DNA of 62,194 nucleotides from Opitutaceae bacterium (GTDB lineage Bacteria > Verrucomicrobiota > Verrucomicrobiia > Opitutales > Opitutaceae): the NCBI GenBank assembly GCA_030648295.1, contig JAUSID010000021.1, positions 1 to 62,194 of the forward strand, written 5' to 3'. Below are positions 10,338-41,349 of this stretch, piece by piece (position 1 is the first letter of the stretch; each line of letters begins with the position of its first letter). The translations under genes were made by a program, and so were the position numbers. The notes under the pieces are model-generated. The model did no database searches and was not told the DNA's origin. It worked only from the letters and a program-made list of their open reading frames with translations.

Positions 10338-10709
10338 ATGCATAACGAGTCCTTCGCCTTCCTCGCGTTATTCCTCGCGGTTGCCGTCGGTTTCCCGCTC
10401 GCCCTGCTGGGGGTCGCCCAGCTGTGGTTTCGGTTTTTTCAGCCGGCAAAACCCAGTGCGGTGAAGAACGCGGTTTACGAATGCGGCCTCGCGCCGACCG
10501 GCGACTCGTGGATCCAGTTCAAGGCCCACTACTACCTTTACGCCATTCTCTTCCTCATTTTCGACGTCGAGGTGCTGTTTCTCCTGCCCTTCGCTGTCGC
10601 TTTCACCGGACTTTCCACCGGCGCGCTGCTGACCATGCTCGTTTTTGTCCTGCTCCTGGCCGAGGGTCTCGTGTGGGCCTGGCAACGCGGCCACCTCGAA
10701 TGGAGATGA
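10338..10709 (+). CDS. nuoA: NADH-quinone oxidoreductase subunit A (operon 1)
   Basis: A 123-residue membrane subunit of complex I with three transmembrane helices. Between helices 1 and 2 is the conserved loop (VYECGLAPTGDSW, then FKAHYYLYAILFLIFDVEVLFLLP), where the Cys and the FDVE acids are the family hallmarks near the quinone chamber. Start ATG 10338 chosen since it precedes helix 1. It opens an operon that continues into nuoB after 3 nt. Confidence 0.93.
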   Translation: MHNESFAFLALFLAVAVGFPLALLGVAQLWFRFFQPAKPSAVKNAVYECGLAPTGDSWIQFKAHYYLYAILFLIFDVEVLFLLPFAVAFTGLSTGALLTMLVFVLLLAEGLVWAWQRGHLEWR

Positions 10710-10712
10710 TGC

Positions 10713-11363
10713 ATGACCGATAGCGCGAATACGCCGACGCCTTTGTCCGACGCCGACCGCGATGAGCTGCGGCGGCAGGGCATCCTGCTCACCAGCCTCG
10801 AGGAACTCTACAACTGGGGCCGCAGCCACTCGGTGTGGCCGCTGCAGTTCGGACTCGCCTGCTGCGCCATCGAAATGATCGCCGCCTCGATGGCGCGGTT
10901 CGACATCGCGCGTTTCGGTTCGGAGGTTTTCCGGCCGTCACCCCGCCAGGCGGATCTACTGATCGTGTCCGGCACGGTGACGAAGAAAATGGCGCCGCAG
11001 GTCGTGCGGCTCTGGAACCAGATGCCGGAGCCGAAGTATTGCATCGCGATGGGCGCATGCGCGATTTCCGGCGGGCCGTTCAAGCAGGGTTACAACGTCC
11101 TCAAGGGAATCGACCGCTACATTCCCGTGGACGTTTACATCCCCGGCTGTCCGCCGCGCCCCGAGGCACTGCTCAACGGGCTGATGACGCTCCAGGAAAA
11201 GATCCGCGGCCAGAAGCTCACGGGGCCGAACGCGCCGCGGCATCTGCGCGCGGATGATGCCTGCGAGTACCCGGTGCCGGAATTCGGCGAAACCGATTTG
11301 GTGCCGCCGACGAACCCCGAGGTCTGGCAGCCGCCCACGATCGTGCGGCCGGATAAACCGTAA
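10713..11363 (+). CDS. nuoB: NADH-quinone oxidoreductase subunit B (operon 1)
   Basis: A 216-residue subunit that carries the terminal [4Fe-4S] cluster N2. The ligands are visible: tandem cysteines in GLACCAIEM, the Cys of GACAISGG, and GCPPRPEAL. The C-terminal 40 residues run past the usual end of bacterial NuoB and are acidic and proline-rich. It sits between the Q-site arm (NuoD) and the membrane arm. The stop overlaps the nuoC start by one base (TAATG). Confidence 0.95.
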
Positions 11364-12028
11364 TGGAATCGCTCGAACAAATCCGCGATCGATTACTGTC
11401 ACGCTATCCCGGCGCGGAATTGAGCATCCTCAACAATCCGTCGCCGTCGGCGCAGCACTCGCTCGTCGTTGGCGGGTCGGCGGCGCGCGAGATTGCGGCG
11501 TTTCTGCGCGACGACCCGGCACTCCAGCTCGACTTCTGCTCGAACGTCACCGGCGTCGACTGGCCGGACAAGGAGATCGTCGAGACGACCAGGACCACCA
11601 TTCCCGATCCGGCGGGCGGCCCGCCGAAACTTGTCGAGCAAAAGACCAAGCGGATCCAACCCGGCTATCTGGAGGTCGTGTATCACCTTTACTCGATGGC
11701 GCTGAAGCAGGGGCCGGTCATCATCCGGATGCGCACGGGCAATCGCACGGATCAGGTCACGCTGCCGTCGCTCACGCCGGTCTGGCGGTCGGGTGAATTC
11801 CAGGAACGCGAAGTCTTTGATCTTTTCGGCGTCGTCTTCGACGGCCATCCGGATCTGCGGCGGATCCTGATGTGGGACGAGTTCAAGGGCCATCCGATGC
11901 GCAAGGACTACGTCGAACCCGACGATTATGAATGGGAGCCGACGCCGCATGACGAGGTGCTGGCAAAAGCGAAGGCGCATTATCCGGCCCCGGCCGCCCC
12001 GGCCGCACCGGGGGCGAATGCCAAATGA
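11363..12028 (+). CDS. nuoC: NADH-quinone oxidoreductase subunit C (operon 1)
   Basis: A 221-residue 30-kDa-type subunit, separate from NuoD (not fused as in E. coli). The family signature is in the second half: [20 protein letters not shown] and [16 protein letters not shown]. The last 15 residues are Ala/Pro-rich ([14 protein letters not shown]), and the final codons fall inside a short repeat that continues into the nuoD leader. Peripheral arm subunit contacting NuoD and NuoI. Confidence 0.93.
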
Positions 12029-12120
12029 CGAATAACGAATGACGAATTCGCCCATAGTTGCGTTGCATGGAACGCCTGCTGTCGCCGGCGGAAACGCGCC
12101 CTCCGAGATTTGTCATTCGC
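12018..12120. repeat. Repeat spanning the nuoC stop and nuoD start
   Basis: AATGCCAAATGACGAATAAC followed by GAATGACGAATTC spans 12018-12047, with a partly complementary block ATTTGTCATTCG at 12108-12119. The nuoC stop (12026-12028) and the proposed nuoD ATG (12039) both lie within the first block. Confidence 0.6.
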
Positions 12121-13268
12121 CGCTCGCGCCCGGCGGGGCGCACGTGCGCTCCGTCCGCGACGAATTCCACGGCGATCTGCTCGAGGTTTCGATGGGCCCG
12201 CACCACCCTTCGACCCACGGCGTGTTCCGGATGATCGCGACGCTCGACGGCGAAACCATCGTCAAGCTGAAGCCGGTTTTCGGATACCTGCACCGGAACC
12301 ACGAGAAAATCGGCGAGAACACGACTTATCTCGGCTCGATGCCGTATACCGATCGGCTGGATTACCTTTGTTCGATGACGAACAACTGGGCCTATGCGCT
12401 GGCGGTGGAAAAACTCGCCGGCCAGCCGGTGCCCGAGCGAACGGAGTATTTGCGCGTCATCCTCGCCGAGCTGACGCGGTTGTTGAACCATACCTGCCTC
12501 GCGGGATTCCTGCTTCAGGACACGGGCGCGAGCGGCACGCCGCTGATGTATGCCTTCCGTGAGCGCGAAAAAATCCTGGACCTCTTCGAAGCGCTCAGCG
12601 GCTCCAGGATGATGTGCAATTATCAGCGCTTCGGCGGCTGTCGCGTTGATGCCTCGCCCGAGTGGCTCGAAGCGGCCAAACGGCTCGCCGACGGCTACAA
12701 TGAATTTCTCGACGAGTACGAGGCACTAATCACCGGCAACGAAATCCTGATGGCCCGCACCCAGGGCGTCGGGGTAATGCCGAGGCAGCTGGCGGTCAGC
12801 GCCGGCATCACCGGGCCGATGCTCCGTGCCGCGGGCGTCGACTACGACATCCGGAAGGTCGACGGCTACGGGGTGTATCCGCGTTTCAACTTCCGTGTCC
12901 CGCTCGGCGACCATGGCGACACCTACGATCGCTACATGATTCGCGTGCTCGAGATGCGCGAATCGATCGAGATCCTGCGGCAGGCCTTTGCCCAGCTTCC
13001 CTCCGGCCCGATCATGGACCCGAAGGCGAAGATTCGCGGGTTCAAGCCGAAGCCGGGCGAGGCGTACGGCCGGATCGAGGGCCCCAAGGGCGAAATCGGC
13101 TTTTATCTCATCAGCGACGGCGGTGCGAATCCCTACCGGTACCGCGTCCGCCCGCCGTCCTTCATCAACTTGACCGTGCTCGAGGACATGTGCCTCGGCC
13201 ACAGCATCGCCGACGCGGTCATCATCCTGGGCAGCATCGACATCGTGCTCGGAGAGGTGGATCGATGA
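12039..13268 (+). CDS. nuoD: NADH-quinone oxidoreductase subunit D (operon 1)
   Basis: A 409-residue 49-kDa-type subunit that forms the quinone pocket with Nuo[15 protein letters not shown] holds the conserved histidine and [17 protein letters not shown] the conserved tyrosine; the fold descends from Ni-Fe hydrogenase large subunits but lacks its metal ligands. The first 33 residues are not family-like and are encoded by a repeat. GTG 12144, with a purine-rich GGCGGGG just upstream, would give a start closer to the family norm and may be the true start. It is separated from nuoI by a hairpin-rich 138-nt gap. Confidence 0.93.
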
Positions 13269-13397: not shown

Positions 13398-13406
13398 AAC
13401 GACCTC

Positions 13407-14168
13407 ATGCTCGGCATCGGATTACTTAAAGGCCTGGGCGTAACCGCCAAAAACCTCGTGGGGAGTTTTCACGACCCCGCGCGGCTGGTCACGACCGAGT
13501 ATCCGGAGCAGCGGACGAAGCTGCCGGAGAACTACCGGAATTTTCCGTTCCTGGTCTACGACGGCACGGCGGCGATCGACGGGCTGCGATGTGTCGCGTG
13601 CAAGATTTGCGAGGTCGAATGCCCGCCGCAGTGCATTTACATCATCCCCGACCGCGACGAGAAAGGCCGTCCGACGAAGAAGCCGAAGGTCTTCGACATC
13701 GACATCTCCGTTTGCATGAGCTGCCAGATCTGCGTCGAGGTGTGCCCCTTCGACGCGATCAAGATGGATCAGCAATACGAGATCGCCGAAGCAGATCGGT
13801 TCGACAGGCTGCTGTTGAAACGCGAGGCCCTGGCGAAGCCGAACAGTTACTACCAGGAGATTCATCCCGCCGAAGCGGCACAGGTGGACGCGATGCTCGC
13901 CGAGGCCAGGCGGAAGGCGGATGCGAAGGCGAAGGCCGCCGCGGAGGCCGCGGCCGCGAAAGCCGCAACGGCAAAGCCCGGCGCGGCGAATCCACCCACG
14001 CGACCGCCGGCGCCATCCGGGTCAACTCCCGCCACCGCGGCAATGAAGCCGGCGACCGCCGCGATGCCCGAACCAGCCGTCCCGCCCGTGCAACCCACCC
14101 AGACTCCAGCCGAAAACTCCGCGACCGGAAATCCGGTCGCGCCGAAAACGGGCACGCCCGGCGCATGA
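13407..14168 (+). CDS. nuoI: NADH-quinone oxidoreductase subunit I (operon 1), extended tail
   Basis: A 253-residue TYKY-type subunit. Two [4Fe-4S] motifs, CVACKICEVECP (residues about 62-73) and CMSCQICVEVCP (about 106-117), hold clusters N6a and N6b. After about residue 170 comes an Ala/Pro/Thr-rich tail of some 85 residues that ordinary NuoI lacks. A comparable tail occurs in NuoI of operon 2. The stop overlaps nuoH (ATGA). Since no nuoEFG is present, NuoI is the likely entry point for electrons from ferredoxin. Confidence 0.93.
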   Translation: MLGIGLLKGLGVTAKNLVGSFHDPARLVTTEYPEQRTKLPENYRNFPFLVYDGTAAIDGLRCVACKICEVECPPQCIYIIPDRDEKGRPTKKPKVFDIDISVCMSCQICVEVCPFDAIKMDQQYEIAEADRFDRLLLKREALAKPNSYYQEIHPAEAAQVDAMLAEARRKADAKAKAAAEAAAAKAATAKPGAANPPTRPPAPSGSTPATAAMKPATAAMPEPAVPPVQPTQTPAENSATGNPVAPKTGTPGA

Positions 14169-15457
14169 CGCTCGTGCAGCTTTCCCGCGTGACTCCCGGC
14201 GTGAGCGACTGGTTTTTTCAATCGCTTTCCTCACCGTTCATTGCAGCGGCCGGCGATTCACGGCTCGAGCGGCTGCCGATCATTGCGCGCGATCTGTTGA
14301 CCAGCCGGCTGCCCGAGCCATGGCGCTGGTGGTTGAACAGCCTCCTTGCGATCCTCGTCGTGCTGTTCGGCTTCGCGATACTCTTCGCGCTGCTCACGCT
14401 GGTCGAACGAAAGGTCCTCGGCCGGGTCCAGAATCGGCCGGGTCCGAACCGCACGGGCCTGCCGTTCACGAAGCTGCGGCTCTTCGGCCTCGGCCAGCCG
14501 CTCGCCGACGGAATCAAGATGCTGACGAAGGAGGACATCGTGCCGCGGTCCGCCGACAAGCTGCTGCACTTCCTCGCGCCGGTCGCGTTGCTCGCGTTTT
14601 CGATTCTCACTTTCGCCGTCCTCCCGTTCGGGCGGAACCTGGTGCCGGTCGAACTCGATGCCGGCATACTTTATTTCTTCGCCGCCGGAGCCGGGACGGA
14701 ACTCGCCGTGTTTATGGCCGGCTGGGCCAGCCGCAACAAATACTCGCTGCTCGCCGCCATGCGGGCGCTGGCACAGCTGATCAGTTACGAACTGCCGCTG
14801 CTGCTCTCGTTCGTGCCGGTCATCATGATGGCGGGAACGCTCTCGACCACGGGCGTCGTCGAGGCGCAGGCGGGCTGGAAGTTTGGTTTTATCCCGCACT
14901 GGCACGTGCTAACCCCGTGGGGATTTGCCGCGTTTGTCATCTTCATGGTCTCGGCCCTGGCCGAGTCCAACCGCTCGCCCTTCGATCTGCCCGAGGCCGA
15001 GAGCGAGCTCATCGCGGGGCATCTCACGGAATATTCGGGATTCAAATACGCGCTGTTCTTCATGGCGGAGTATTTCGGCATGTGCGCGTTGAGCGCGATG
15101 GCCGTCACGCTCTTCCTCGGCGGCTGGCGGGCGCCGCTGCCGTTCCTGGAAATCGTGCCGTCGTACGTCTGGTTCGCGCTCAAGCTCTTCGCCCTGCTTT
15201 TCGGCTTCATCTGGATTCGCGCCACGTTTCCCCGGCTGCGGATCGATCAGCTGACGCGCTTCGCGTGGAAGTTTCTTGTGCCGATGGCGCTGATTAATCT
15301 CGGCACCGCCGCGTTCTGGTCGCTGACCTGCAACTGGAGCGGCCCGCTGCAACTCGCCCGCTGGGCGATCGCCCTCGCACTCGTCGCCGGCCCCTTCGTC
15401 GTCATGGGCCGCAAACTCAGCCGCGACTACGCCCCGCGGACTTATCGCTACGCATGA
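14165..15457 (+). CDS. nuoH: NADH-quinone oxidoreductase subunit H (operon 1)
   Basis: A 430-residue membrane subunit with about eight helices that closes the quinone chamber. Conserved segments: ERKVLGRVQNRPGPNRTG, QPLADGIKMLTKED, and the acid-rich loop ESNRSPFDLPEAESELIAG with YSGFKYALFFMAEY. The first 45 residues form an N-terminal extension relative to typical NuoH. It starts within the nuoI stop and overlaps nuoJ by 4 nt. Confidence 0.94.
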   Translation: MTLVQLSRVTPGVSDWFFQSLSSPFIAAAGDSRLERLPIIARDLLTSRLPEPWRWWLNSLLAILVVLFGFAILFALLTLVERKVLGRVQNRPGPNRTGLPFTKLRLFGLGQPLADGIKMLTKEDIVPRSADKLLHFLAPVALLAFSILTFAVLPFGRNLVPVELDAGILYFFAAGAGTELAVFMAGWASRNKYSLLAAMRALAQLISYELPLLLSFVPVIMMAGTLSTTGVVEAQAGWKFGFIPHWHVLTPWGFAAFVIFMVSALAESNRSPFDLPEAESELIAGHLTEYSGFKYALFFMAEYFGMCALSAMAVTLFLGGWRAPLPFLEIVPSYVWFALKLFALLFGFIWIRATFPRLRIDQLTRFAWKFLVPMALINLGTAAFWSLTCNWSGPLQLARWAIALALVAGPFVVMGRKLSRDYAPRTYRYA

Positions 15458-16005
15458 GCATCGCCTTCCTCATCATCGCGCTCGTCACGCTCGGCTCCGC
15501 GGCCGTCGCGATGTCATTGCGGAACCTCATCCACAGTGCGCTGCTGCTGATTGCGAGCTGGGCCGGCATCGCCGCGTTTTATCTTTGGGCCGGCGCCGAA
15601 TTCGTCGCCTTCGCGCAACTCCTCGTCTACGTCGGCGCGGTTTCCATGGTCGTGTTGTTCGCCGTCCTGCTCACCCGGCAGTCGCGGGTGGACATGGCGA
15701 TCGCGCCGGACGCGCTGCGGCGGATCGTGGCGGCGTTGCTGGCTGGCGGCGCCACCCTGGGCGTGCTCTTCGGCGCGGTGGTGAGCGCGCCACTGCCCAT
15801 CGCCGCGAGCGCAACGCCCGTGACCGTATCCGTCCGGCAGATGGGCCAGGAGCTGATGGGGACCCATGCGGCGGCGCTGTTGATTGTTGGCGCGCTCCTC
15901 ACCGTCGCCCTGCTGGGTGCGATCATCCTCGCCTCGACCGGTCGCGAAGATCCGCCGGGCGTCGCGCCACCGGCGGTTGCGCCTCCAACCCGCAAAACAT
16001 CGTGA
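15454..16005 (+). CDS. nuoJ: NADH-quinone oxidoreductase subunit J (operon 1)
   Basis: A 183-residue membrane subunit with five helices. FVAFAQLLVYVGAVSMVVLF is the hallmark helix with the pi-bulge that conveys conformational change in complex I. The short cytoplasmic tail is proline-rich (DPPGVAPPAVAPPTRKTS). Overlaps nuoH by 4 nt and nuoK by 4 nt (GTGA). Confidence 0.93.
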   Translation: MSIAFLIIALVTLGSAAVAMSLRNLIHSALLLIASWAGIAAFYLWAGAEFVAFAQLLVYVGAVSMVVLFAVLLTRQSRVDMAIAPDALRRIVAALLAGGATLGVLFGAVVSAPLPIAASATPVTVSVRQMGQELMGTHAAALLIVGALLTVALLGAIILASTGREDPPGVAPPAVAPPTRKTS

Positions 16006-16319
16006 GCCTGAGTCCGCTTCAACTCTGCCTGCTCTTTTCCAGCGCCCTGTTCTGCGTCGGGCTGATCGGCGCGCTCGCTCGCAGCAACACCATCCTCGTG
16101 CTGCTCGGCGTCGAACTCATGCTCAATGCGGCGAACATCAATTTCATCGCATTCTGGCGCTTCGGCCCCGCGCCCTCGCCCGCGACGGGCGTCATGTTCG
16201 TGGTGTTTTCAATTGCGGTCGCGGCTGCCGAAGCCGCGGTCGGTCTCGCGCTGGTGATCGCGATTTACCGGCACCAGAAAAACATCCGGCTCCAGGAGGC
16301 CGTGCGGCTTAAGGGGTGA
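16002..16319 (+). CDS. nuoK: NADH-quinone oxidoreductase subunit K (operon 1)
   Basis: A 105-residue subunit with three helices, MrpC-like. The conserved glutamates are in LLGVELMLNAANINFIAF and AVAAAEAAVGLALVIAIYRH. GTG 16002 overlaps the nuoJ stop. A repeat-filled gap of about 150 nt follows before nuoL. Confidence 0.93.
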   Translation: MSLSPLQLCLLFSSALFCVGLIGALARSNTILVLLGVELMLNAANINFIAFWRFGPAPSPATGVMFVVFSIAVAAAEAAVGLALVIAIYRHQKNIRLQEAVRLKG

Positions 16320-16365
16320 TATGACGGCGGACAACCGACCCATTCTGATGATCCTGCGTCTTCCA

Positions 16366-16470
16366 TTTCGGATTTCGGATTGCGGATTGCGGATTCACCG
16401 CACCGGTCGCGATCCGCTTCGCCGTTTCGGCGGTTTGCCCAATCCGCAATCCGCAATCCGAAATCCGCAA
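16366..16470. repeat. Inverted repeat abutting the nuoL start
   Basis: Arm 16366-16396 (units of TTTCGGATTGCGGATT) is the near-perfect complement of arm 16441-16470 (AATCCGCAATCCGCAATCCG onward). The nuoL start ATG at 16470 begins at the last base of the second arm, so its ribosome-binding region is repeat-derived. Confidence 0.75.
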
Positions 16471-18503
16471 TGCTCATGAGCGTAACCGCCGCCCACGTCT
16501 GGCTCATTCCCGCGCTGCCGCTCCTTGCGGCGGGAATTGGCGCGCTTACGCCTCGTGTCGGCCGGAGACTTGCCGCGGGCGCGGCCATCGTGGCGCTGGC
16601 GGTTTCGTTCCTGCTCTCGTGCGGCGCGCTCGTGACCGCCCTCGCCGATCCCGCCGCGCATCTCGTCCACAACTTTGCCTGGTTCGACCTTGGCGACTCC
16701 GCGGTGCGGCTCGGCTGGCTCCTGGATCCGCTGACCGCCTTCATGTGCGTGATGGTCACGTTCGTCGGGCTCTTGATTTTCATCTTCAGCACGGGCTACA
16801 TGCACGAGGACGCGAATTTCACGCGCTTCTTCTGTTTCCTCAGCCTGTTTGCCGCTGCGATGCTGGGTCTCATCGTCGCGAACAGCCTGCTGCTGCTGTT
16901 CATCTGCTGGGAGCTGGTTGGCCTCGCGTCGTATTTGCTGATTGGATTCTGGTTCCACAAACCCGAGGCGGCCGCAGCGGGAAAGAAGGCGTTCATCACC
17001 ACGAGGATTGGCGACCTTGGACTGCTGCTCGGCATGGTGTGGCTCTACGATGCCACCGGCTCGCTGCTCTTCTATGATGGAGGCAACGGTGTCCTCGAGA
17101 CCAATGCGCTGGGTGCGCTCACCGCCCAGTTCACGATTGGCGGGCTGGCGGTGTCGACCGCGATCGGGTTGCTAATCTTCTGCGGCGCCGTCGGCAAATC
17201 GGGCCAGTTCCCGCTGCATGTCTGGCTGCCGGATGCGATGGAAGGCCCGACCCCGGTGTCCGCGTTGATCCACGCAGCCACCATGGTTGCGGCCGGCGTT
17301 TTCCTCGTCGCCCGCGTGTATCCGCTGATGACGGCGGATTTGCCGCTGACGGGGGTTCCGCTGCACGCTCTGACGGTTGTCGCCGCGATCGGCGCGATTA
17401 CCGCGCTGCTCGGCGCCGTGATCGCCGTCGGCCAAAGCGACATCAAGCGGATCCTCGCCTTCTCCACCGTTTCCCAACTCGGCTATATGATGCTGGCGCT
17501 CGGAGTCGGCTCATGGGTGGCGGCGATTTTTCACCTGCTGACCCACGCGTTTTTCAAGGCACTGCTATTCCTTGGTGCGGGCTCGGTGATCCATGCGGCG
17601 CATCACGAGCAGGACATCCGGCGGCTGGGCGGATTGCGGCGACCGCTGCGCGTGACGTTCGCCACGTTTGCGATCGGCATGATGGCGCTCGCCGGCGTGC
17701 CATTCCTGTTTTCGGGCTTCTGGAGCAAGGAGGCGATTCTCCACGCCGCGCACGGATGGACCGTGTCGCCGCTGCCGCTCTATGTTGCGCTCGCCGGCGT
17801 GGTGCTCACCGCGTTCTACATGACGCGGCTGGTCGCGGAGACGTTCTTCGGCACCCCGCGCAGCGAGACGGCGGAACACGCACACGAAAGTCCCGCCACG
17901 ATGACCGTGCCGCTCGTTGTACTCGCCATCTTCGCCATCCTCCTCGGTTTCCTCGGCACGCCGGCGTGGCCGTGGCTCCAGGCCCGACTTGAAGGCCGCA
18001 CTGAAATTCACGGCCACTCGCTGGCCGATGGTGCGGGATTGATGGGGCTTTCAATTGTCCTCGTGGCGCTCGGCATCGGTGCCGGTTGGGCGCTCTATGG
18101 CCGCCGGCCGCGCGCACGGGCCGCGGCGACCGATCCAATCGAAGGTCGCGCGCCGAAACTTTTTCACGCGCTGCGCCAGCGGCTCGGTTTCGACGAGCTT
18201 TATGCGGCGACGGTCGGCCGGATCAGCGATGGGCTCGCCGCCCTCGCCGACTGGCTCGACCGCTCGGTGTGGGACGGCACAATCCGGTTCCTCGCGCGGC
18301 TGGGCGTCTTTGCCGGCGTGGTGAATCGCGAAGCGGATGAGGACGTGATCAACGGCGGCTTTGATGCTGGCAGCGAAGGGCTGCGCCGCGGTGCCAACGC
18401 GTACTCACACGCACAAACCGGCGACGCGCACGGTTACCTGCGGGTGGTCGCGATCGGATTCGTGATGCTCGTCCTGGTCGTGATGCTGGGAGGTGGAAGG
18501 TGA
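16470..18503 (+). CDS. nuoL: NADH-quinone oxidoreductase subunit L with extended lateral-helix region (operon 1)
   Basis: A 677-residue antiporter-like subunit, about 60 longer than E. coli NuoL (613). The core is canonical: LFICWELVGLASYLLIGFWF, GAVGKSGQFPLHVWLPDAME, STVSQLGYMMLALGVG, LTHAFFKALLFLGAGSVIHA. The C-terminal part begins LGFDELYAA, continues through WLDRSVWDGTIRFLARLG and NREADEDVINGGFDAGSEGL to the last helix HGYLRVVAIGFVMLVLVV. By my count this stretch has about 30 more residues between GFD-LY and the last helix than E. coli NuoL; that is where the lateral helix lies. ATG 16470 or 16476 may start translation. Confidence 0.94.
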   Translation: MLMSVTAAHVWLIPALPLLAAGIGALTPRVGRRLAAGAAIVALAVSFLLSCGALVTALADPAAHLVHNFAWFDLGDSAVRLGWLLDPLTAFMCVMVTFVGLLIFIFSTGYMHEDANFTRFFCFLSLFAAAMLGLIVANSLLLLFICWELVGLASYLLIGFWFHKPEAAAAGKKAFITTRIGDLGLLLGMVWLYDATGSLLFYDGGNGVLETNALGALTAQFTIGGLAVSTAIGLLIFCGAVGKSGQFPLHVWLPDAMEGPTPVSALIHAATMVAAGVFLVARVYPLMTADLPLTGVPLHALTVVAAIGAITALLGAVIAVGQSDIKRILAFSTVSQLGYMMLALGVGSWVAAIFHLLTHAFFKALLFLGAGSVIHAAHHEQDIRRLGGLRRPLRVTFATFAIGMMALAGVPFLFSGFWSKEAILHAAHGWTVSPLPLYVALAGVVLTAFYMTRLVAETFFGTPRSETAEHAHESPATMTVPLVVLAIFAILLGFLGTPAWPWLQARLEGRTEIHGHSLADGAGLMGLSIVLVALGIGAGWALYGRRPRARAAATDPIEGRAPKLFHALRQRLGFDELYAATVGRISDGLAALADWLDRSVWDGTIRFLARLGVFAGVVNREADEDVINGGFDAGSEGLRRGANAYSHAQTGDAHGYLRVVAIGFVMLVLVVMLGGGR

Positions 18504-18530
18504 GCACACGTTGTTGGAGCCGGGATTTGG

Positions 18531-20232: not shown

Positions 20233-20315
20233 CAGAATTCGCGGTTGCAAGCTGGCACAGCGGCTTGATTCGCGTCCCAGCGTTCCGCCGGCGGTGGGCT
20301 CAACCGCGAATTCTG
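20233..20315. repeat. Inverted repeat immediately upstream of the second nuoM
   Basis: A perfect 15-bp pair: CAGAATTCGCGGTTG (20233-20247) and CAACCGCGAATTCTG (20301-20315). The ATG of the second nuoM is at 20318, so the second arm covers the expected ribosome-binding site. Confidence 0.8.
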
Positions 20316-20317
20316 CC

Positions 20318-23760: not shown

Positions 23761-23810
23761 AAATGATTACACGCGCGGCGCCACCGGAACCGGCCGGCTA
23801 TGCTGCGCGC

Positions 23811-31820: not shown

Positions 31821-31826
31821 AAGCCG

Positions 31827-34389: not shown

Positions 34390-34712
34390 ACCTCCTTTAC
34401 CTGCACGATCGCCCCGGGATCTACCTTGTCCTCGCCGCGTGCCTGCTCGCCATCGGCATCTTTGGACTGCTCCGGCGGCGCACGCTGATCGGCATGCTGA
34501 TTTCCGGCGAGATCATCTTCGCCGCCGCCTCGCTGAATGTGATGGCGGTGAATCGGTTCTTCGCGCCGGACCCGACCGCCGGGCAGATTTTCGTACTCTT
34601 CATCATGGGACTCGCCGCCGCCGAAGTGGCGATCGCGCTGAGCATCATCATCGCCGTCTACCGCAACTATCGCTCCATCGCCCCGCAGGAGCTTACTGAA
34701 CTCAAGGGTTAG
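34386..34712 (+). CDS. nuoK: NADH-quinone oxidoreductase subunit K (operon 2)
   Basis: A 108-residue three-helix subunit. GMLISGEIIFAAASLNVMAV and MGLAAAEVAIALSIIIAVYR carry the conserved glutamates. The next gene starts 3 nt after its stop. Confidence 0.92.
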   Translation: MNLLYLHDRPGIYLVLAACLLAIGIFGLLRRRTLIGMLISGEIIFAAASLNVMAVNRFFAPDPTAGQIFVLFIMGLAAAEVAIALSIIIAVYRNYRSIAPQELTELKG

Positions 34713-34715
34713 CCC

Positions 34716-36257
34716 GTGGAACCAACCAGCGACATCCGACTGTTTCTCGCCCTGCTCGCGCCGCTGATCGGCGCCGGGTTCGTGATGCTCACGGGCCGGC
34801 GACCCAACGTGCGGGAGGCCGTCTCGCTCGTGTCGGCGCTCACGCTGGCGGGGCTCGTCTTCTCGCTCGTGCCGGCAGTCATGGCGGGCCAGAAACTCCA
34901 CTACACGCTCTTCGAGCTGATTCCCGTCGAGTACACGCAGGCGCTCACCCTCGCGCCGACCGCGACCGCGCTCACCTTCGCGCTCCGCGCCGACGCGCTC
35001 TCGATGATCTTCGCGGTCGTCGCCTCCTCGCTGTGGGTCCTGACCGTGTTCTACTCCGCCGGATACATGCGCGGCTTGAACGAGCACGCGCAAACCCGGT
35101 TCAGCGCCTGCTTCGCGCTCGCCCTCTTTGGTGCCATCGGCTGCGCCTTCGCCGACAACCTGCTCACGCTTTATCTCTTCTACGAAGTCGTCAGCATCTC
35201 GACGTATCCGCTGGTTGCTCACCATCAGGACGAGGAGGGCTACGAGGGCGGAAAGAAATATCTGGTCTACCTGACCACGACGGCGAAGGCGCTCGTGCTC
35301 CCGGCCATGGTCATGATCTTCGTCCTCTCAGGCACGCTCGACTTCGCCGGCAACGCCAGCAGCGGAATCCTCCCGCCGGCAGCGCATCGCGGCGTCGTCA
35401 CCGTCCTGTATATCTGCTGCCTCATCGGCTTCGCGAAGAACGGCGTGATGCCGTTCCACCACTGGCTGCCCGGCGCGATGGTCGCACCGACGCCCGTCAG
35501 CGCGCTGCTGCATGCCGTCGCCGTGGTGAAGGTCGGCGTGTTCTCCACCGTGCGCGTGATGCTGTATGTGTTCGGCGTCGACACGATGCACGCGCTGAAC
35601 CTTGGCATCCCGACGGCCTACTTCGTCTCCATCACCATCCTGGTCGCGTCGGTGATCGCGCTGAGCAAGGACAACCTGAAGCTGCGGCTCGCCTATTCCA
35701 CCGTCAGCCAGCTCTCCTACATCATCCTCGGCGTGGCGCTGCTCACGCCAACGGGAGTCGAAGGCGGTCTGGTGCACATCGCGAATCACGCCTTCGCCAA
35801 AATCACGCTCTTCTTCTGCGCCGGCGCGATCTACGTCGCTTCGCACAAGAAGAATATTTCCGAGATGAGCGGGCTCGGTCGCGTGATGCCGTTCACCTTC
35901 GGCGCCTTTGCCCTCGCCTCGCTCGGCATGATCGGCGCGCCGCCCGTCGGCGGATTCATCTCCAAGCTCTACCTGCTGGTCGGCGCGATGGATGCGGGGA
36001 CCATGGGCATCATGGTCGTGCTGATCGCCAGCACGGTGCTGAACACCGCGTATTTCGCCCCGGTCGTGTACCACGCGTTCTTCGGCAAGGCGCCACCGGA
36101 GAATGGCGGCGGCCACGGACAGGCGGTTGCGCACGTGAAACACGGTGAGGCGCCGCTCGCGATGGTAATCCCGCTGTGTGTCACCGCCGCGGCGTCCGTC
36201 GCGCTCGGGTTCTACCCCGACTTCTTCATGCAATTCGCCCACGCGGTCCTGCCATGA
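34716..36257 (+). CDS. MrpD-type monovalent cation/H+ antiporter subunit
   Basis: A 513-residue, 14-helix antiporter-like subunit. It aligns with MrpD/NuoL-group proteins rather than canonical NuoL: LTLYLFYEVVSISTYPLVAH (glutamate helix), CLIGFAKNGVMPFHHWLPGA (lysine helix), NLKLRLAYSTVSQLSYIILG, HIANHAFAKITLFFCAGAIY. No lateral helix is present. GTG start at 34716. In this operon it stands where nuoL is expected and is coupled (ATGA) to a small membrane protein. Likely adds an ion-translocating unit to complex I; whether H+ or Na+ cannot be told. Confidence 0.9.
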   Translation: MEPTSDIRLFLALLAPLIGAGFVMLTGRRPNVREAVSLVSALTLAGLVFSLVPAVMAGQKLHYTLFELIPVEYTQALTLAPTATALTFALRADALSMIFAVVASSLWVLTVFYSAGYMRGLNEHAQTRFSACFALALFGAIGCAFADNLLTLYLFYEVVSISTYPLVAHHQDEEGYEGGKKYLVYLTTTAKALVLPAMVMIFVLSGTLDFAGNASSGILPPAAHRGVVTVLYICCLIGFAKNGVMPFHHWLPGAMVAPTPVSALLHAVAVVKVGVFSTVRVMLYVFGVDTMHALNLGIPTAYFVSITILVASVIALSKDNLKLRLAYSTVSQLSYIILGVALLTPTGVEGGLVHIANHAFAKITLFFCAGAIYVASHKKNISEMSGLGRVMPFTFGAFALASLGMIGAPPVGGFISKLYLLVGAMDAGTMGIMVVLIASTVLNTAYFAPVVYHAFFGKAPPENGGGHGQAVAHVKHGEAPLAMVIPLCVTAAASVALGFYPDFFMQFAHAVLP

Positions 36258-36514
36258 AACTCGTCCGCTTCATCGATTTTTTTAGAGACCGGCTGAAGCT
36301 GGTCATCCGCGGCTGCTACGTCGTGCTCGCGCTGCTGGTGCTGATCGACGCGCTGCCGTTCCTCGTCGACAAGCAGCACGCGCACACGAGCGCCGAAAAA
36401 TTCCCGTTTTTCTGGGCCGCGTTCGGGTTCCTCGGCTGTGTCCTGATTATCCTCGCCTCAAAAGCCTTCGGGAAAGCAGGCATCATGAAGCGGGAGGACT
36501 ACTACGATGAGTGA
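36254..36514 (+). CDS. Small two-helix membrane protein of the nuo/Mrp operon
   Basis: An 86-residue protein, basic at the N terminus (MKLVRFIDFFRDRLKLVIRG), with two transmembrane helices (YVVLALLVLIDALPFLV; FFWAAFGFLGCVLIILASKAF) and a charged tail (KREDYYDE). It starts in the preceding stop (ATGA) and overlaps the next gene by 8 nt, so it is firmly within the operon. I do not know a named family; from memory, small proteins of this type accompany paired MrpD-like genes. It may be an accessory subunit at the antiporter junction. Confidence 0.75.
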   Translation: MKLVRFIDFFRDRLKLVIRGCYVVLALLVLIDALPFLVDKQHAHTSAEKFPFFWAAFGFLGCVLIILASKAFGKAGIMKREDYYDE

Positions 36515-38390
36515 GCTGCTCACCCTGTTCGCCACCGTTGCCTCTGGCATCGGCAATACTGCGGCGAACGTAGCTGGCCTCTGGCCTCTGGCCTCCGGCT
36601 TCTGGCCTCTGCCCTCTGGCCTCTGGCTTCACCCGGCCGTCATCCTGCTGCTCGGCGGCGCGCTGCTGCCGCTGGTGCCGTCGCGGCTGAAGATGAGTTA
36701 TCTCCTGCTCATCCCGCTGCTCGTCTTCGCGCGGACGCTCGCGCTCTCGAAAGGCGTCTACGGCGAAGTCACCTTCCTGAACTGGACGCTCACGTTCGGC
36801 CGCGTCGACGGGTTGAGCCTCGTCTTCGGCTACATCATGGCGGTCGCGTGCTTCATCGGCACGCTCTACGGCGCACACGTCAAACGCGACGCCGAGCACA
36901 TCGCCGCCTGGACCTACGTCGCCGGCTCGCTCGGCACGATTTACGCGGGCGATCTGCTGACGGTGTTTCTCTTCTGGGAACTGATGGCGTTCTCTTCCGT
37001 GTTCCTGATTTGGTTCCGCGGCCGCAACGAGTCATTGAATGCCGGATACCGCTACCTGCTTGTTCACGTGGCTGGCGGCGTGGCGCTGCTCGCGGGGATC
37101 ATGATGCACGTTCATGCGACCGGCAGCTGGGCGTTCAACCTGTTTGACGTTCATCATCCGACGGCCGCGACCTGGCTGATCATGGGCGGGTTCATCCTCA
37201 ACGCCGCCGTCCCGCCGCTGCACGCCTGGCTGCCGGACGCCTATGGCGAGGGCACGTTCAACGGCTCGGTCTTCCTCAGCGCGTTCACGACCAAGACCGC
37301 CGTGTATGCGTTGTGCCGCGGTTTCGCCGGCATGGAAATCCTCGTCGCGCTCGGCGTGATCATGGCGCTCTACGGTGTCGTCTACGCCGTGCTCGAAAAC
37401 GACTCCCGCCGGCTGCTCGCGTATCACATCATCAGCCAGGTCGGCTACATGGTCGCCGGTGTCGGCCTCGGCACCGAGATGGCAATCAACGGCGCCTGCG
37501 CCCACGCGTTCGCCCACATCCTCTACAAGGGACTGCTCTTCATGGGCTGCGGCGCGGTCCTGCACATGACCGGCCAGAGCAAGTTCACCGAACTCGGTGG
37601 ACTGTACAAGAAGATGCCGTGGACGTTCGTCTTCACGCTCATCGGCGGGCTCTCCATCTCGGCCTTCCCGCTCTTCAGCGGCTTTGTTTCCAAGTCGATG
37701 ATCGTCGCCGCCGGCTACGAGGAGCACAAGTTGTGGGCCGCGTATCTGCTGATGCTCGCATCCGCGGGAACGTTCCTGCACACCGGCCTGAAGGTTCCGT
37801 ATTTCATCTGGTTCGGGAAGAACAACTGCCAGCCCGACACCTGGAAGCGCGCGGCCGAGCCGCCCTGGAACATGATGGCCGCGATGGCCATCGCCTCCGT
37901 GCTCTGCATCTACATCGGCTGCTACACGCCCTACCTGTATCGGATGCTTCCCTACCCGGTCGTGTATGAGCCCTACACGTCGTACCACGTGTCCGAGACG
38001 CTGCTCATTCTCTGCTTCACCGGCCTCGGATTCTTCCTGCTGCTGAAAAAGCTCGTGCCGACCGCGACCATCAGCGTCGACCTCGACTGGCCGTATCGGA
38101 TGGGTGGTCGCGCCTTCCTGTGGCTCGCGCGCAAACCCGTCCAGGCGTTCGACAACGTCGTCGGTGAAATCTATCGCGCGGGCGGCCTCGTGCCGCTGAT
38201 GCGCTCGGCCAACGTCGTCGACTGGTTCGATCGCGTCGTGATTGATGGCGTGGTCGACGGTTTTGCCGGCAGCTTCCGCCGGCTCGGCAGCCGGCTGCGC
38301 TCAACCCAGCGCGGCGCCCTCCAGGAAAACCTCGCCCTCACCTTCGGCGCCGCCGCCGTCCTCGCGGTTGCATTCGTGATCTGGTTCTGA
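36507..38390 (+). CDS. MrpD/NuoL-like antiporter subunit with C-terminal lateral-helix-like extension
   Basis: A 627-residue antiporter-like subunit. LTVFLFWELMAFSSVFLIWF is the glutamate helix. The usual lysine before the HxWLPD motif is asparagine (FILNAAVPPLHAWLPDAYGE), while AFTTKTAVYALCRG and HAFAHILYKGLLFMGCG are intact. The last 110 residues (GRAFLWLARKPVQAFDNVVG; DWFDRVVIDGVVDGFAGSFR, then a final helix) resemble the NuoL lateral helix and terminal anchor, so it may be the distal, NuoL-like member of this complex. Residues about 23-41 (GLWPLASGFWPLPSGLWL) come from a tandem repeat inserted in the gene. Confidence 0.88.
   Translation: MSELLTLFATVASGIGNTAANVAGLWPLASGFWPLPSGLWLHPAVILLLGGALLPLVPSRLKMSYLLLIPLLVFARTLALSKGVYGEVTFLNWTLTFGRVDGLSLVFGYIMAVACFIGTLYGAHVKRDAEHIAAWTYVAGSLGTIYAGDLLTVFLFWELMAFSSVFLIWFRGRNESLNAGYRYLLVHVAGGVALLAGIMMHVHATGSWAFNLFDVHHPTAATWLIMGGFILNAAVPPLHAWLPDAYGEGTFNGSVFLSAFTTKTAVYALCRGFAGMEILVALGVIMALYGVVYAVLENDSRRLLAYHIISQVGYMVAGVGLGTEMAINGACAHAFAHILYKGLLFMGCGAVLHMTGQSKFTELGGLYKKMPWTFVFTLIGGLSISAFPLFSGFVSKSMIVAAGYEEHKLWAAYLLMLASAGTFLHTGLKVPYFIWFGKNNCQPDTWKRAAEPPWNMMAAMAIASVLCIYIGCYTPYLYRMLPYPVVYEPYTSYHVSETLLILCFTGLGFFLLLKKLVPTATISVDLDWPYRMGGRAFLWLARKPVQAFDNVVGEIYRAGGLVPLMRSANVVDWFDRVVIDGVVDGFAGSFRRLGSRLRSTQRGALQENLALTFGAAAVLAVAFVIWF
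36573..36632. repeat. Tandem CTGGCCTCTGGC repeat inside a coding sequence
   Basis: About five degenerate copies of CTCTGGC(C/T)TCTGGC lie in frame within the 36507 antiporter gene and encode a WPLASGF-type repeat near the N terminus. The repeat type resembles the intergenic oligonucleotide repeats of this window rather than a family-conserved segment. Confidence 0.7.
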
Positions 38391-38396
38391 CGCGCC

Positions 38397-39893
38397 ATGA
38401 CTCCCGAATCCCCTTTCCCTTTTCTCAGCGTATTGATTTTCGGACCGGTCGCGGGCGTCGCGGTGCTGGCGCTGCTGCGCGATGAACGCGCCCAGCGCTG
38501 GTGGACGCTCTTCGTTACCGCGGCGGTCGGGCTGTTGTCGCTGCTGCTGCTGCCACGGTTCAATACCGACACGCACGCGTTTCAATTCGTCGAGCAAGCC
38601 GCATGGATTCCGACGCTGAAGATCAACTACACCCTTGGGCTCGACGGGATCAGTCTGCTGCTCGTCCTGCTCACGACGTTGATGATGCCGCTGTGCGTGC
38701 TGGCGTCCTGGAACTACATCAAGACGCGCGTGAAAGAATTCATGATCGCGCTGCTGCTGATGGAGACGACGATGATCGGCGTCTTCTCCGCGCTGGATAC
38801 GATTCTCTTCTTCGTGTTCTGGGAGGCGATGTTGATCCCGATGGCGCTGATGATCGGCGTGTGGGGCGGACCGCGGCGGGTGTACGCGTCGCTCAAGTTT
38901 TTCATCTACACCATGGCCGGCTCCGTGTTCCTGCTCGTGGCGCTGATCGCGCTGCGACTCCAGACCGGAACGTTCAGCCTGCCCGACACGATGGGCCACC
39001 CGTTGTCCGCCGGTTTTCAGAGCTGGGTGTTCGCCGCCTTCTTCATTTCCTTCGCGATCAAAGTGCCGATGTTCCCGTTTCACACCTGGCTGCCGGCCGC
39101 GCACGTCGAGGCGCCGACCGCCGGCAGTGTGCTGCTCGCGAGCATTCTCCTGAAGATGGGCACGTATGGCTTCCTGCGATTTGCCCTGCCGATTACGCCG
39201 CTGGCCGCTCACACCTTTGGGCCCTATGTCATGTGGATTTCGGTCGTGGCGATTCTCTACGGTGGCTTCGCGGCGCTGGCCCAGACTGATCTCAAGAAAC
39301 TCGTCGCGTATTCGAGTGTGAGCCACATGGGTTTTGCGACGCTGGGAATCTTCGCCCTGAACACCGGCGGGATCGAAGGAGCCACGCTCGTCATGATCAA
39401 CCACGGTATCACCACCGGCGGGTTGTTCATGGTCGTCGGCCTAATCTACGAGCGGCTGCACACCCGCGACATCGGCGCGGCGGCGGGCATCGGAAAACAG
39501 ATGCCGATCTTTGCATTCTGCTACGGCCTGTTCTGTCTCTCGTCCCTGGCGTTTCCCGGCACGAACAGCTTCATCGGTGAGTTTCTCGTCCTCGCCGGCG
39601 GTCTCAAGGTATCGAAACTTCTGATTCTGTGTGCGGTACCCGGCATCGTCGCCGCGGCCGCCTACAATCTGCGGATGCTGCAAAAACTCGCCTGGGGTGG
39701 AACCGACAATCCGAAGCACCCGCCCCTGGCCGATCTGAATTTCCGCGAGATGGTGATGTTCGCCCCACTCGTCGCGTTCGTGTTCTGGATCGGGCTGCAT
39801 CCGCAACCCGTGATGCGAATCATGCACGCGAGCGTGGTGCACCTCCTGCAACAGGCCAACCCGGTCATCACCCAGGTCGCCGCGCTGCCGTGA
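38397..39893 (+). CDS. nuoM: NADH-quinone oxidoreductase subunit M (operon 2)
   Basis: A 498-residue antiporter-like subunit with canonical residues: TILFFVFWEAMLIPMALMIG (glutamate), ISFAIKVPMFPFHTWLPAAH (lysine), ILLKMGTYGFLRFALP, LKKLVAYSSVSHMGFATLG, MINHGITTGGLFMVVGLIYE. ATG 38397 is 6 nt after the previous stop. Only one NuoM occurs in this operon, beside two MrpD/NuoL-like proteins. Confidence 0.93.
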   Translation: MTPESPFPFLSVLIFGPVAGVAVLALLRDERAQRWWTLFVTAAVGLLSLLLLPRFNTDTHAFQFVEQAAWIPTLKINYTLGLDGISLLLVLLTTLMMPLCVLASWNYIKTRVKEFMIALLLMETTMIGVFSALDTILFFVFWEAMLIPMALMIGVWGGPRRVYASLKFFIYTMAGSVFLLVALIALRLQTGTFSLPDTMGHPLSAGFQSWVFAAFFISFAIKVPMFPFHTWLPAAHVEAPTAGSVLLASILLKMGTYGFLRFALPITPLAAHTFGPYVMWISVVAILYGGFAALAQTDLKKLVAYSSVSHMGFATLGIFALNTGGIEGATLVMINHGITTGGLFMVVGLIYERLHTRDIGAAAGIGKQMPIFAFCYGLFCLSSLAFPGTNSFIGEFLVLAGGLKVSKLLILCAVPGIVAAAAYNLRMLQKLAWGGTDNPKHPPLADLNFREMVMFAPLVAFVFWIGLHPQPVMRIMHASVVHLLQQANPVITQVAALP

Positions 39894-39897
39894 AACC

Positions 39898-41349
39898 ATG
39901 AGTTCCTTCCTCGCCTTTCTTCCCGAGCTCATCCTCCTCGCCGGTGCGTTGGGTTTGTTTGTCGTCGCGCTCGGCGACGGCCGGGTTCGCCTCGCGCGCA
40001 CGGTCAGCCTGCTCACCGCCACCGGCATGCTGCTGGCCGCGCTGTTCACTTTCGGCCAGCAGATGGTGATGTTCGACGGCGCCTACCGCGTCGACGGTTT
40101 CTCGCAATTCCTGAAGATCGTGATCGGCTTCGGCTACGTCTGCGTCGTTCTCCTCAGCGGCGAACTCCGCGACATCCGCGGCGAAGCGAAGCCGGAGTAT
40201 TATCTTTTCATCGCCCTCAGCCTCATCGGGCTGACCCTGCTGGTGAGCAGCATCGACGTGATCACGCTCGTCGTTTCACTCGAGCTCTCGTCGTTCGCCC
40301 TCTACCTGCTGGTGCCGATGCGGCGGGAGCGCGCGGGCCAGCGCGCGCAGATGGAGTCCGCGATCAAATACCTGATGTTCGGCGTCGCCGCCACCGGCGT
40401 GATGCTCTTCGGATTCAGCTATCTTTACGGCCTCACCGGATCCACCTCGCTGCCGGTGATCCTCGCGAAGCTGCCGCCGCTGCTCGCTTCATCGAACAGC
40501 TCGCTCGCCATCGTCGGCCTCGCTCTCGCGCTCGCCGGGCTGCTCTACAAGCTCGCGGTCTTCCCGTTCCATTTCTGGACGCCGGACGTGTACGAGGGCG
40601 CGGCCAACGAAACCTCGGGCCTGATCGCGTCGCTGCCCAAGGTCGGCGCCGTGGCGGTCCTCGTCCGGCTCGTGTCGCTCGCCACACCGGAGCACGCCGC
40701 CTTCGCCACGCTGCTCACCTGCCTGGCGGTGGCTTCGATGGTATACGGCAACCTGATCGCCCTCGTGCAGACCGACTTCAAGCGGCTGCTCGGGTTCTCC
40801 GGCATCGCGCACGCCGGTTATGCGCTGATCGGCTTTGTCGCGCTCGACGACGCCGGCTACGCGGCCGCGCTGTATTACATCAGTGGCTACATGCTCATGG
40901 TCCTGGCCTGCTTCGTCGTCATCTGCCACGTCTCACCCGACGGCGCGAATGTCAGCGTGGCGGACCTCGCCGGACTCCATCGCCGCTCGCCGCTGCTCGC
41001 CGTCACCCTGCTCGTCGGTGTTTTTGCCCTCGCCGGCATCCCGCCGTTCGTCGGTTTCATGGCCAAGCTGAGCCTGCTCACGGCCGCGCTCGACAAGGGT
41101 CATCTCGCGCTCGTTGTCGTCGCGGTGATCAATTCCGCGATCGCGATCTATTATTACCTGCGAATCGTCCGCACGGCATTCTTCGGCGAATCGGAAGGCA
41201 TTCCCGCCAGAATCCAGCTGGCCTGGCCGGTGGCGGCGCTGTGCCTGCTCCTGATCGCCGGCATCACCGCGCTCGGTGTCGTGCCCGCGACGGTGGTCGA
41301 TACGATTTCGCGCTCGCTGGCGGCGATCAAATTTCCGCCGCTCGGGTGA
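39898..41349 (+). CDS. nuoN: NADH-quinone oxidoreductase subunit N (operon 2)
   Basis: A 483-residue antiporter-like subunit. ITLVVSLELSSFALYLLVPM (glutamate) and LAGLLYKLAVFPFHFWTPDV (lysine) are conserved; VQTDFKRLLGFSGIAHAGYA and LAGIPPFVGFMAKLSLLTAA follow. It ends operon 2; a repeat block follows rather than a clear terminator. Confidence 0.93.
   Translation: MSSFLAFLPELILLAGALGLFVVALGDGRVRLARTVSLLTATGMLLAALFTFGQQMVMFDGAYRVDGFSQFLKIVIGFGYVCVVLLSGELRDIRGEAKPEYYLFIALSLIGLTLLVSSIDVITLVVSLELSSFALYLLVPMRRERAGQRAQMESAIKYLMFGVAATGVMLFGFSYLYGLTGSTSLPVILAKLPPLLASSNSSLAIVGLALALAGLLYKLAVFPFHFWTPDVYEGAANETSGLIASLPKVGAVAVLVRLVSLATPEHAAFATLLTCLAVASMVYGNLIALVQTDFKRLLGFSGIAHAGYALIGFVALDDAGYAAALYYISGYMLMVLACFVVICHVSPDGANVSVADLAGLHRRSPLLAVTLLVGVFALAGIPPFVGFMAKLSLLTAALDKGHLALVVVAVINSAIAIYYYLRIVRTAFFGESEGIPARIQLAWPVAALCLLLIAGITALGVVPATVVDTISRSLAAIKFPPLG

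Follow-up and report, generated by a model that had tools for sequence, protein, structure and literature searches.

Introduction

Which donor supplies electrons to a complex I that lacks the NADH-oxidising subunits NuoE, NuoF and NuoG? This question is raised by a stretch of 62,194 nucleotides from an Opitutaceae bacterium (JAUSID010000021.1, assembly GCA_030648295.1), hereafter the window, which is contig C61 of a source genome of 9.12 Mb in 294 contigs that is 96.6% complete and 4.0% contaminated. Two complex I operons without nuoEFG were found in this window (operon 1, 10338-23316, + strand; operon 2, 28935-41349, + strand), and a small ferredoxin gene, korA, korB and a GltD-like gene lie between them in this order. 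In this study, the island formed by these genes is proposed, at slightly better than an even chance, to be a ferredoxin-linked entry into the respiratory chain, in which ferredoxin reduced by KorAB would feed one or both of the EFG-less complexes. According to the literature, the direct donor of EFG-less complex I is an open question, and no donor shared by all bacteria with such a complex emerged when one was sought (PMC11238625; this and the other papers cited here are represented by excerpts).

Gene content of the island

Operon 1 has the gene order nuoA B C D I H J K L M M' N, where M' is an extra nuoM, and operon 2 has the order nuoA B C D H I J K X1 S X2 M N, where X1 and X2 are MrpD-like antiporter genes and S encodes a protein of 86 amino acids with no Pfam or NCBIfam match. 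The intergenic spacings in the window are 446, 36, -4, 345 and 319 bases. A first-pass annotation had described both operons as a Q module plus a membrane arm without NuoE, NuoF or NuoG, and this description was borne out by NCBIfam, Pfam, alignment and BLASTP, but the extra antiporter subunits of both arms had been overlooked. It had also stated that nuoE, nuoF and nuoG occur nowhere else in the window; none of the three genes was found there, and genome searches with PF01512 and PF01257 matched other contigs only. Moreover, Pfam and NCBIfam confirmed its small ferredoxin, korAB and GltD-like flavoprotein between the operons.

In operon 1, subunits A, I, H, K, L, M, M' and N were called with NCBIfam, A also with PF00507 and D with PF00346, and B, C and J were identified by alignment or BLASTP against E. 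coli or S. meliloti subunits. In operon 2, NCBIfam gave C, D, I, X1, X2, M and N, PF00507 gave A, and alignment or BLASTP gave B, H, J and K. Operon 1 NuoA, both NuoI and operon 2 NuoC scored below the curated NCBIfam cut-offs, and these names rest also on position and motifs. An assembly artefact was rejected, since the gene order recurs in independent assemblies, one of them on an 889 kb contig (G006). The features are as follows (TM, transmembrane helix; HL, lateral helix).

10338..10709, +, nuoA of operon 1, fitting the 2M type (PF00507, 107.6 bits; PRK07756 below cut-off)
10713..11363, +, nuoB of operon 1, N2 cluster cysteines retained (alignment to E. coli NuoB)
11363..12028, +, nuoC of operon 1 (BLASTP to S. 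meliloti and E. coli NuoC)
12039..13268, +, nuoD of operon 1, HPSTHG and DYL retained (PF00346; alignment)
13407..14168, +, nuoI of operon 1, two 4Fe-4S motifs and a long Ala/Pro-rich tail (TIGR01971, 90 bits, cut-off 113; alignment)
14162..15457, +, nuoH of operon 1 (PRK06076.1-2, 312.5 bits, cut-off 305)
15454..16005, +, nuoJ of operon 1 (24-29% identical to other NuoJ)
16002..16319, +, nuoK of operon 1 (PRK05715.1-2, 91.6 bits, cut-off 57)
16470..18503, +, nuoL of operon 1, 26-residue insert in lateral helix HL (PRK06590, 640 bits, cut-off 556)
18306..18383, +, the 26-residue HL insert of NuoL (alignment; 120 closest sequences listed)
18616..20157, +, nuoM of operon 1, E141, K231, K262 and E418 retained (TIGR01972, 461 bits, cut-off 264)
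20294..21853, +, extra nuoM (M') of operon 1, TM7 lysine site occupied by Leu228 (TIGR01972, 428 bits, cut-off 264)
21847..23316, +, nuoN of operon 1 (TIGR01770, 369 bits, cut-off 333)
23763..24044, +, small ferredoxin with a single 4Fe-4S, Fer4_13 (PF13370)
24081..25877, +, korA, fused gamma-alpha, 2-oxoacid:acceptor oxidoreductase (TIGR03710, 554 bits, cut-off 483; PDB 6n2n)
25874..26755, +, korB (TIGR02177, 279 bits, cut-off 262)
27101..28543, +, GltD-like flavoprotein, Fer4_20 and Pyr_redox_2 (Pfam; 345 bits, true-GltD cut-off 483)
28935..29321, +, nuoA of operon 2 (PF00507, 90 bits)
29318..29881, +, nuoB of operon 2 (alignment)
29878..30525, +, nuoC of operon 2, Ala/Pro-rich N-terminus (TIGR01961, 87 bits, cut-off 122)
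30522..31664, +, nuoD of operon 2, HPAAHG and DYL retained (PRK06075, 426 bits, cut-off 360)
31827..32855, +, nuoH of operon 2 (alignment or BLASTP)
32972..33700, +, nuoI of operon 2, two 4Fe-4S motifs and an Ala/Pro-rich tail (TIGR01971, 111.5 bits, cut-off 113; alignment)
33697..34389, +, nuoJ of operon 2 (26-27% identical to other NuoJ)
34386..34712, +, nuoK of operon 2 (alignment or BLASTP)
34716..36257, +, X1, MrpD-like antiporter subunit 1 (PRK08375.1-1, 811 bits, cut-off 663; 53% identical to S. meliloti pSymA)
36254..36514, +, S, 86-residue protein between the MrpD-like genes (45% identical to S. meliloti WP_003526961)
36507..38390, +, X2, MrpD-like antiporter subunit 2 replacing NuoL, with Asn232 where the TM7 lysine would be (PRK12668, 748 bits, cut-off 564; 52% identical to S. 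meliloti)
38397..39893, +, nuoM of operon 2 (NCBIfam; 54% identical to NuoM of the S. meliloti green complex I)
39898..41349, +, nuoN of operon 2 (TIGR01770, 352 bits, cut-off 333)
46679-50428, -, PFOR (pyruvate:ferredoxin oxidoreductase)/nifJ, 5.3 kb past operon 2 (Pfam)

Candidate ferredoxin source, Q modules and proposed mechanism

KorA, a gamma-alpha fusion, and KorB both scored above the NCBIfam cut-offs of 2-oxoacid:acceptor oxidoreductase families. The closest solved sequence to KorA, 6n2n, is labelled as a pyruvate flavodoxin/ferredoxin oxidoreductase domain protein, and the substrate of KorAB is likely 2-oxoglutarate. By alignment, both NuoI proteins keep two 4Fe-4S motifs and both NuoD proteins keep the His and Tyr of HP..HG/DYL, which are presumably quinone-site residues. 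With no N module and a Q module in which these residues are kept, both operons match the 11-subunit type of EFG-less complex I. That complex shares with the window the lack of EFG, the retained Q module and ferredoxin or a 2-oxoacid oxidoreductase as the suspected donor, but it has three antiporter-type subunits (LMN) and its donor candidates came from proteomics, whereas the window has four antiporter-type subunits per operon and donor candidates within the gene cluster (PMC11238625). In the proteomics of Desulfitobacterium, the abundance of PFOR and ferredoxin tracks the 11-subunit complex (PMC11238625).

In the proposed mechanism, KorAB would oxidise a 2-oxoacid and reduce the small 4Fe-4S ferredoxin encoded between the operons, and in at least one of the two EFG-less complexes, perhaps in both, NuoI would take up electrons from the reduced ferredoxin. 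NuoB and NuoD would then relay the electrons to quinone, the enlarged arms, L-M-M'-N and MrpD1-MrpD2-M-N, would move ions, and an EFG-bearing complex encoded on contig C265 of the same genome would serve NADH. We infer ferredoxin as the direct donor and the forward direction of flow, as well as the four-antiporter assembly and the coupled ion. The cost of additional antiporter subunits in the arms would be covered by a donor of lower potential than NADH. The standard potentials are about -0.42 V for ferredoxin, -0.32 V for NADH and about -0.08 V for menaquinone. From these potentials, two electrons passing to menaquinone release ~66 kJ when they come from ferredoxin and ~46 kJ when they come from NADH, and a proton corresponds to ~17 kJ at 180 mV. 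Because of the larger energy release, and provided that electrons go to menaquinone, ferredoxin would be a better match than NADH for a four-antiporter arm.

A long tail rich in Ala and Pro forms the C-terminus of each NuoI (window 13800-14168 and 33400-33700). Such tails were seen in all 13 relatives that gave an alignment row (of 17) and not in E. coli NuoI, and the tail is possibly a docking arm. An Ala/Pro-rich N-terminus of ~86 residues was also observed in operon 2 NuoC (29878-30138).

Two unusual membrane arms

Operon 1 holds two NuoM genes, and its NuoL has an insert of 26 residues relative to E. coli NuoL and three Myxococcota NuoL (residues 614-639, numbered from base 16467, one codon ahead of the ATG). 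This insert was kept in 8/8 operon-1 relatives aligned and in all 120 closest sequences listed, the window copy included. A second NuoM and a NuoL lateral-helix insert of ~26 residues are the marks of 2M complex I (PMC9040806, PMC6606698), and by both of them operon 1 fits the 2M complex I of Chadwick et al. 2018 (via PMC6606698, PMC7117926, PMC9040806). The 2M complex I of the Nitrospira clade likewise has an operon without nuoE/F and a proposed ferredoxin link, but the 2M operon of Nitrospira clade 3 is without nuoH and has an enlarged nuoG (PMC6606698), whereas operon 1 has nuoH, has no nuoG and is linked to the genes of ferredoxin and KorAB. An AlphaFold model of NuoL alone had a mean pLDDT (predicted local distance difference test) of 55.6, with residues 612-662 below 50, and the lateral helix was not usable in it.

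In operon 2, NuoL is absent and two MrpD-like subunits flanking the 86-residue protein are found instead. The X1/S/X2/NuoM block is 53/45/52/54% identical to a block on S. meliloti pSymA (NZ_CP021819), whereas A, B, C, D, H, I, J, K and N are not preferentially related to their rhizobial counterparts. Operon 2 NuoD, which is 39-41% identical to those of S. meliloti, is no closer to them than to others and was not joined to them in a NuoD tree with weak deep forks. Furthermore, the rhizobial green complex I cluster on pSymA carries its own nuoEFG, whereas operon 2 has none in the window and no NuoE, NuoF or NuoG match was found in the searched flanks of its relatives. Because only the distal block resembles the rhizobial one and nuoEFG is absent, operon 2 is a mosaic, in which a green-type distal arm is joined to a different, EFG-less Q module. 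It shares the MrpD1-small protein-MrpD2-NuoM block with rhizobial green complex I (Degli Esposti 2016; via PMC9040806, PMC7415380) and differs from it in the lack of nuoEFG, in the order ABCDHIJK-X1-S-X2-M-N and in a Q module, J, K and N without particular affinity to the rhizobial ones. A green-type MrpD pair is also combined with another complex I in Complex_I_3 of Ca. Manganitrophaceae, but that complex has five pump subunits in one complex and a 26-residue insert in MrpD2 (PMC9040806), whereas the window would encode two separate complexes of four, with no MrpD2 insert relative to S. meliloti. In the NuoD tree, which was used only for the separation of operon 1 and operon 2 copies and for identities, the two clades stood apart (100/100); the rows L024_op1 and L077_op1 are operon 2 copies, the operon 1 NuoD being cut off or absent there.

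The residues that we take to be essential in antiporter-type subunits (E. coli numbering) are Glu in TM5, Lys in TM7, Lys in TM8 and Lys/Glu in TM12. Compared with E. coli, the full set is kept in operon 1 NuoL and NuoM, both NuoN, operon 2 NuoM and X1. In the extra NuoM, Glu145, Lys259 and Glu404 are retained and Leu228 occupies the TM7 lysine site, as Leu does in 35/35 distinct stretches of relatives and in 120/120 closest sequences listed, the window copy included in both counts. X2 has Asn232 at this site; Asn was found there in 49/49 distinct stretches of relatives and in 119 of the 120 closest sequences listed (Thr in the other), and S. meliloti MrpD2 also has Asn. The closest-sequence lists for the extra NuoM and X2 do not sample distant 2M operons. 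Because the TM7 lysine is replaced by Leu, a simple "fifth proton" moved by the extra NuoM is doubtful, a point of relevance to the fifth proton that 2M complexes are claimed to pump.

As a tentative possibility, the single cluster, which is probably one transcription unit in some genomes, may encode two four-antiporter, NADH-independent complexes of different descent that share one KorAB/ferredoxin source, and in each of them the TM7 lysine is missing from one antiporter subunit (the extra NuoM with Leu, MrpD2 with Asn). Instead of acting as a standard fourth proton pump, this subunit would serve as a coupling spacer or would transport a different ion (e.g. Na+). If so, the complexes would differ in coupling ion or stoichiometry, and one might even oxidise the shared ferredoxin pool while the other reduces it.

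Conservation among relatives

The whole order of operon 1, ferredoxin, KorAB and operon 2 was found in six other Opitutae, namely L024/G021 (C16, CAIRCN010000016.1, uncultured Opitutae bacterium), L025, L027/G043 (C100, JACRKC010000129.1, Verrucomicrobia bacterium), L077/G115 (C18, JAHCAZ010000012.1, Opitutaceae bacterium), G006 and G140, where paired handles denote the same contig. The spacings are 72, 33, 8 and 48 bases in L024; other genes fill 4.6 kb between operon 1 nuoN and the ferredoxin gene in L025, and 1.9 kb separate korB from operon 2 nuoA in L027. Parts of the order were also found: ferredoxin-KorAB, a GltD fragment and operon 2 from the contig edge with 4.6 kb between (L023), operon 1-ferredoxin-KorAB running to the contig edge (L026, L038), ferredoxin-KorAB divergent from operon 1 (L043, L044, L046), and ferredoxin-KorAB upstream of operon 2 with no operon 1 (G003, a record named Opitutus terrae). 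In three Myxococcota loci, KorAB either directly follows nuoN of a different complex I operon (L045 and L047, Sandaracinaceae) or faces such an operon (L042, Myxococcales), and in L048, a Deltaproteobacteria contig, it follows a nuoN piece at the contig edge. No match to the C265 NuoE, NuoF or NuoG was found in these four stretches by tblastn; outside these stretches, a NuoF-like protein is encoded in each of the L042, L045 and L047 genomes, and none was found at the limit used for L048.

The KorA scan yielded 64 loci. A complex I gene accompanied KorA in 14 of the 34 loci of at least 55% identity (7/18 where 8 kb was available on both sides) and in none of the 30 more distant loci within the stretch. 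In a profile of 150 genomes of the family, X2 (E <= 1e-150) was found in 25, M' (E <= 1e-110) in 64, KorA (E <= 1e-150) in 21 and a close NuoF (E <= 1e-100) in 141. KorA and operon 2 co-occur, X2 being present in 14/21 genomes with KorA and 11/129 others (Fisher p 1.7e-8; this and the p values below are uncorrected for kinship). The upstream stretch was too short in seven of the 25 X2 genomes; among the 18 left, six carry the whole island (window included) and G003 carries ferredoxin-KorAB-operon 2. Judged by its recurrent gene order, the island is real and conserved in a subset of the Opitutae.

The link between ferredoxin/KorAB and complex I drawn in the first-pass annotation stands in so far as the gene linkage is conserved in part of the relatives, but nifJ and the GltD-like gene, which had been counted in, are not conserved parts. 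The nifJ gene had correctly been placed 5 kb away; among the eight relatives for which ~15 kb past operon 2 was available, only G115 has it near operon 2, together with a dihydroorotate-dehydrogenase-like gene, and it was rejected as an island member. The GltD-like gene had been listed as part of the module between the operons; it is absent between korB and operon 2 nuoA in six of the nine clusters that have both (L024, L025, L027, G006, G140, G003), which leaves no conserved third subunit of the KorABC type there.

Complex I-like genes elsewhere in the genome

NuoF-type domains occur at four places in the source genome and NuoE-type domains on three contigs (PF01512, PF01257), none of them on the window. 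A nuoE/F/G set, which the first-pass annotation had named as counter-evidence if it co-purified with the subunits of the two operons, is present on C265, but it lies inside a run of its own comprising nuoB, C, D, E, F, G, H, I, J, L, M and N, identified by Pfam (ten genes), a PF00346 search (D) and BLASTP (L and a K frame). No nuoA adjoins nuoB on C265, and C96 carries the genome's third nuoA.

NuoE/NuoF-like genes were also observed on C158 (L020, about 5500-9800) beside a FeFe-hydrogenase, which was recognised by three motifs that we take to be those of the H-cluster; this is a probable further ferredoxin-linked enzyme of the source genome. On C68 (L018, 2758-4647 and 12686-15214), two NuoD/HycE-like frames are without any CxxC. 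Because this motif is missing, the proteins are probably not nickel hydrogenases and may belong to group-4-hydrogenase-like complexes seemingly without a nickel site.

Other neighbouring genes

A TIR-domain protein with TPR repeats is encoded at 41725-43632, directly past operon 2. In L025, a protein whose N-terminus resembles it by eye (6447-8756) is encoded between operon 1 nuoN and the ferredoxin gene, near apparent toxin-antitoxin genes. In G122, operon 2 adjoins apparent hypD, hypE, hypA, hypB and hypF (L111 9308-15296, by eye; hydrogenase maturation).

Discussion

Several observations weigh against a ferredoxin-linked entry fed by KorAB. No complex I gene was seen within the stretch at 20 of the 34 KorA loci of at least 55% identity, although contig ends truncate many of these loci. 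KorA and operon 1 are only weakly associated (13/21 vs 51/129, p 0.047), and the two operons co-occur no more than by chance (p 0.70). KorAB is not found upstream in 11 of the 18 informative operon-2 genomes, including G122 of the same genus, which carries the three modules on three separate contigs. In G003, korA is split between two frames near residue 480 (L115 8617-10334, L182) and looks frameshifted, through gene decay or a sequencing error. Finally, the extra NuoM is without the TM7 lysine, as described above.

Reverse electron transport, in which the four-antiporter complexes would draw on quinol and ion-motive force to reduce ferredoxin for reductive reactions of KorAB and further enzymes, is improbable in our judgement. 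KorAB enzymes can be reversible, which counts in favour of this direction. However, no nifH was found above cut-off in the source genome, so that nitrogenase, considered as a ferredoxin sink and rejected, is not an evident one; moreover, a sucA match above cut-off is present, so that the 2-oxoglutarate step does not depend on KorAB alone, and a role of KorAB as a replacement of the tricarboxylic acid cycle dehydrogenase was likewise rejected. Reverse flow has been proposed for Nitrospira 2M complex I (PMC6606698), as it has for a related complex with five pumps in Manganitrophaceae (PMC9040806).

It is distinctly improbable that NAD(P)H enters through the GltD-like flavoprotein, which would either feed the ferredoxin or Q module or link KorAB to NADP+ as a third subunit. 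The comparison for such a subunit is Azoarcus KorABC, a 2-oxoglutarate:NADP+ oxidoreductase. GltD-like genes do lie upstream of operon 2 on the same strand in G136, G013 and G009 (1.4 kb away), which are among the 11 genomes without KorAB there, and together with KorAB in the window and G115, with a fragment in L023; a further copy lies 3.6 kb past operon 2 in G043, and another beside ferredoxin-KorAB without complex I in L035. Against this route stand the six clusters without the gene and the divergence of the window protein, which is only 44-50% identical to the copies upstream of operon 2 in relatives, whereas their KorA, KorB and operon 2 NuoD are mostly 76-90% identical. In addition, the window protein has GADPGGL and has lost the PGG(L/V)L stretch kept in 7/7 aligned relatives, because of which its FAD binding may be altered.

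It is very unlikely that the C265 NuoEFG docks on the Q modules of both operons and so turns the two complexes into ordinary NADH dehydrogenases with bigger arms. These subunits exist in the genome, a close NuoF is present in 141 of the 150 family genomes, and the rhizobial green complex I cluster includes EFG genes of its own. However, the C265 set sits within its own nuoB-N run, the searched flanks of relatives gave no NuoE, NuoF or NuoG match, and a shared docking face is doubtful because operon 1 and operon 2 NuoD are only 48% and 41% identical to C265 NuoD. Least probable of all is a mere clustering of respiratory genes in which the two complexes and KorAB are independent: the modules do occur apart (M' in 64, X2 in 25 and KorA in 21 of 150 genomes; three contigs in G122) and 4.6 kb of other genes intervene in L025, but clusters of the same order recur, with short gaps in some genomes, and KorAB-complex I pairs are found in another phylum.

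No published description of the island was found in titles and abstract starts, and the founding papers, Chadwick 2018 and Degli Esposti 2016, may contain parts of it. On the evidence of its genes, the island varies two unusual kinds of complex I that are already known and newly combines them with a linked candidate ferredoxin source. A candidate donor pair of ferredoxin and KorAB lies between two EFG-less complexes in several Opitutae and beside another in Myxococcota, and the donor question of EFG-less complex I becomes testable through this island. The carriers include records named Opitutus sp. ER46 (G006, whole island) and Opitutus terrae (G003, ferredoxin-KorAB-operon 2), the latter of which we take to be a cultured species; therefore, the donor question may be put to cultures.

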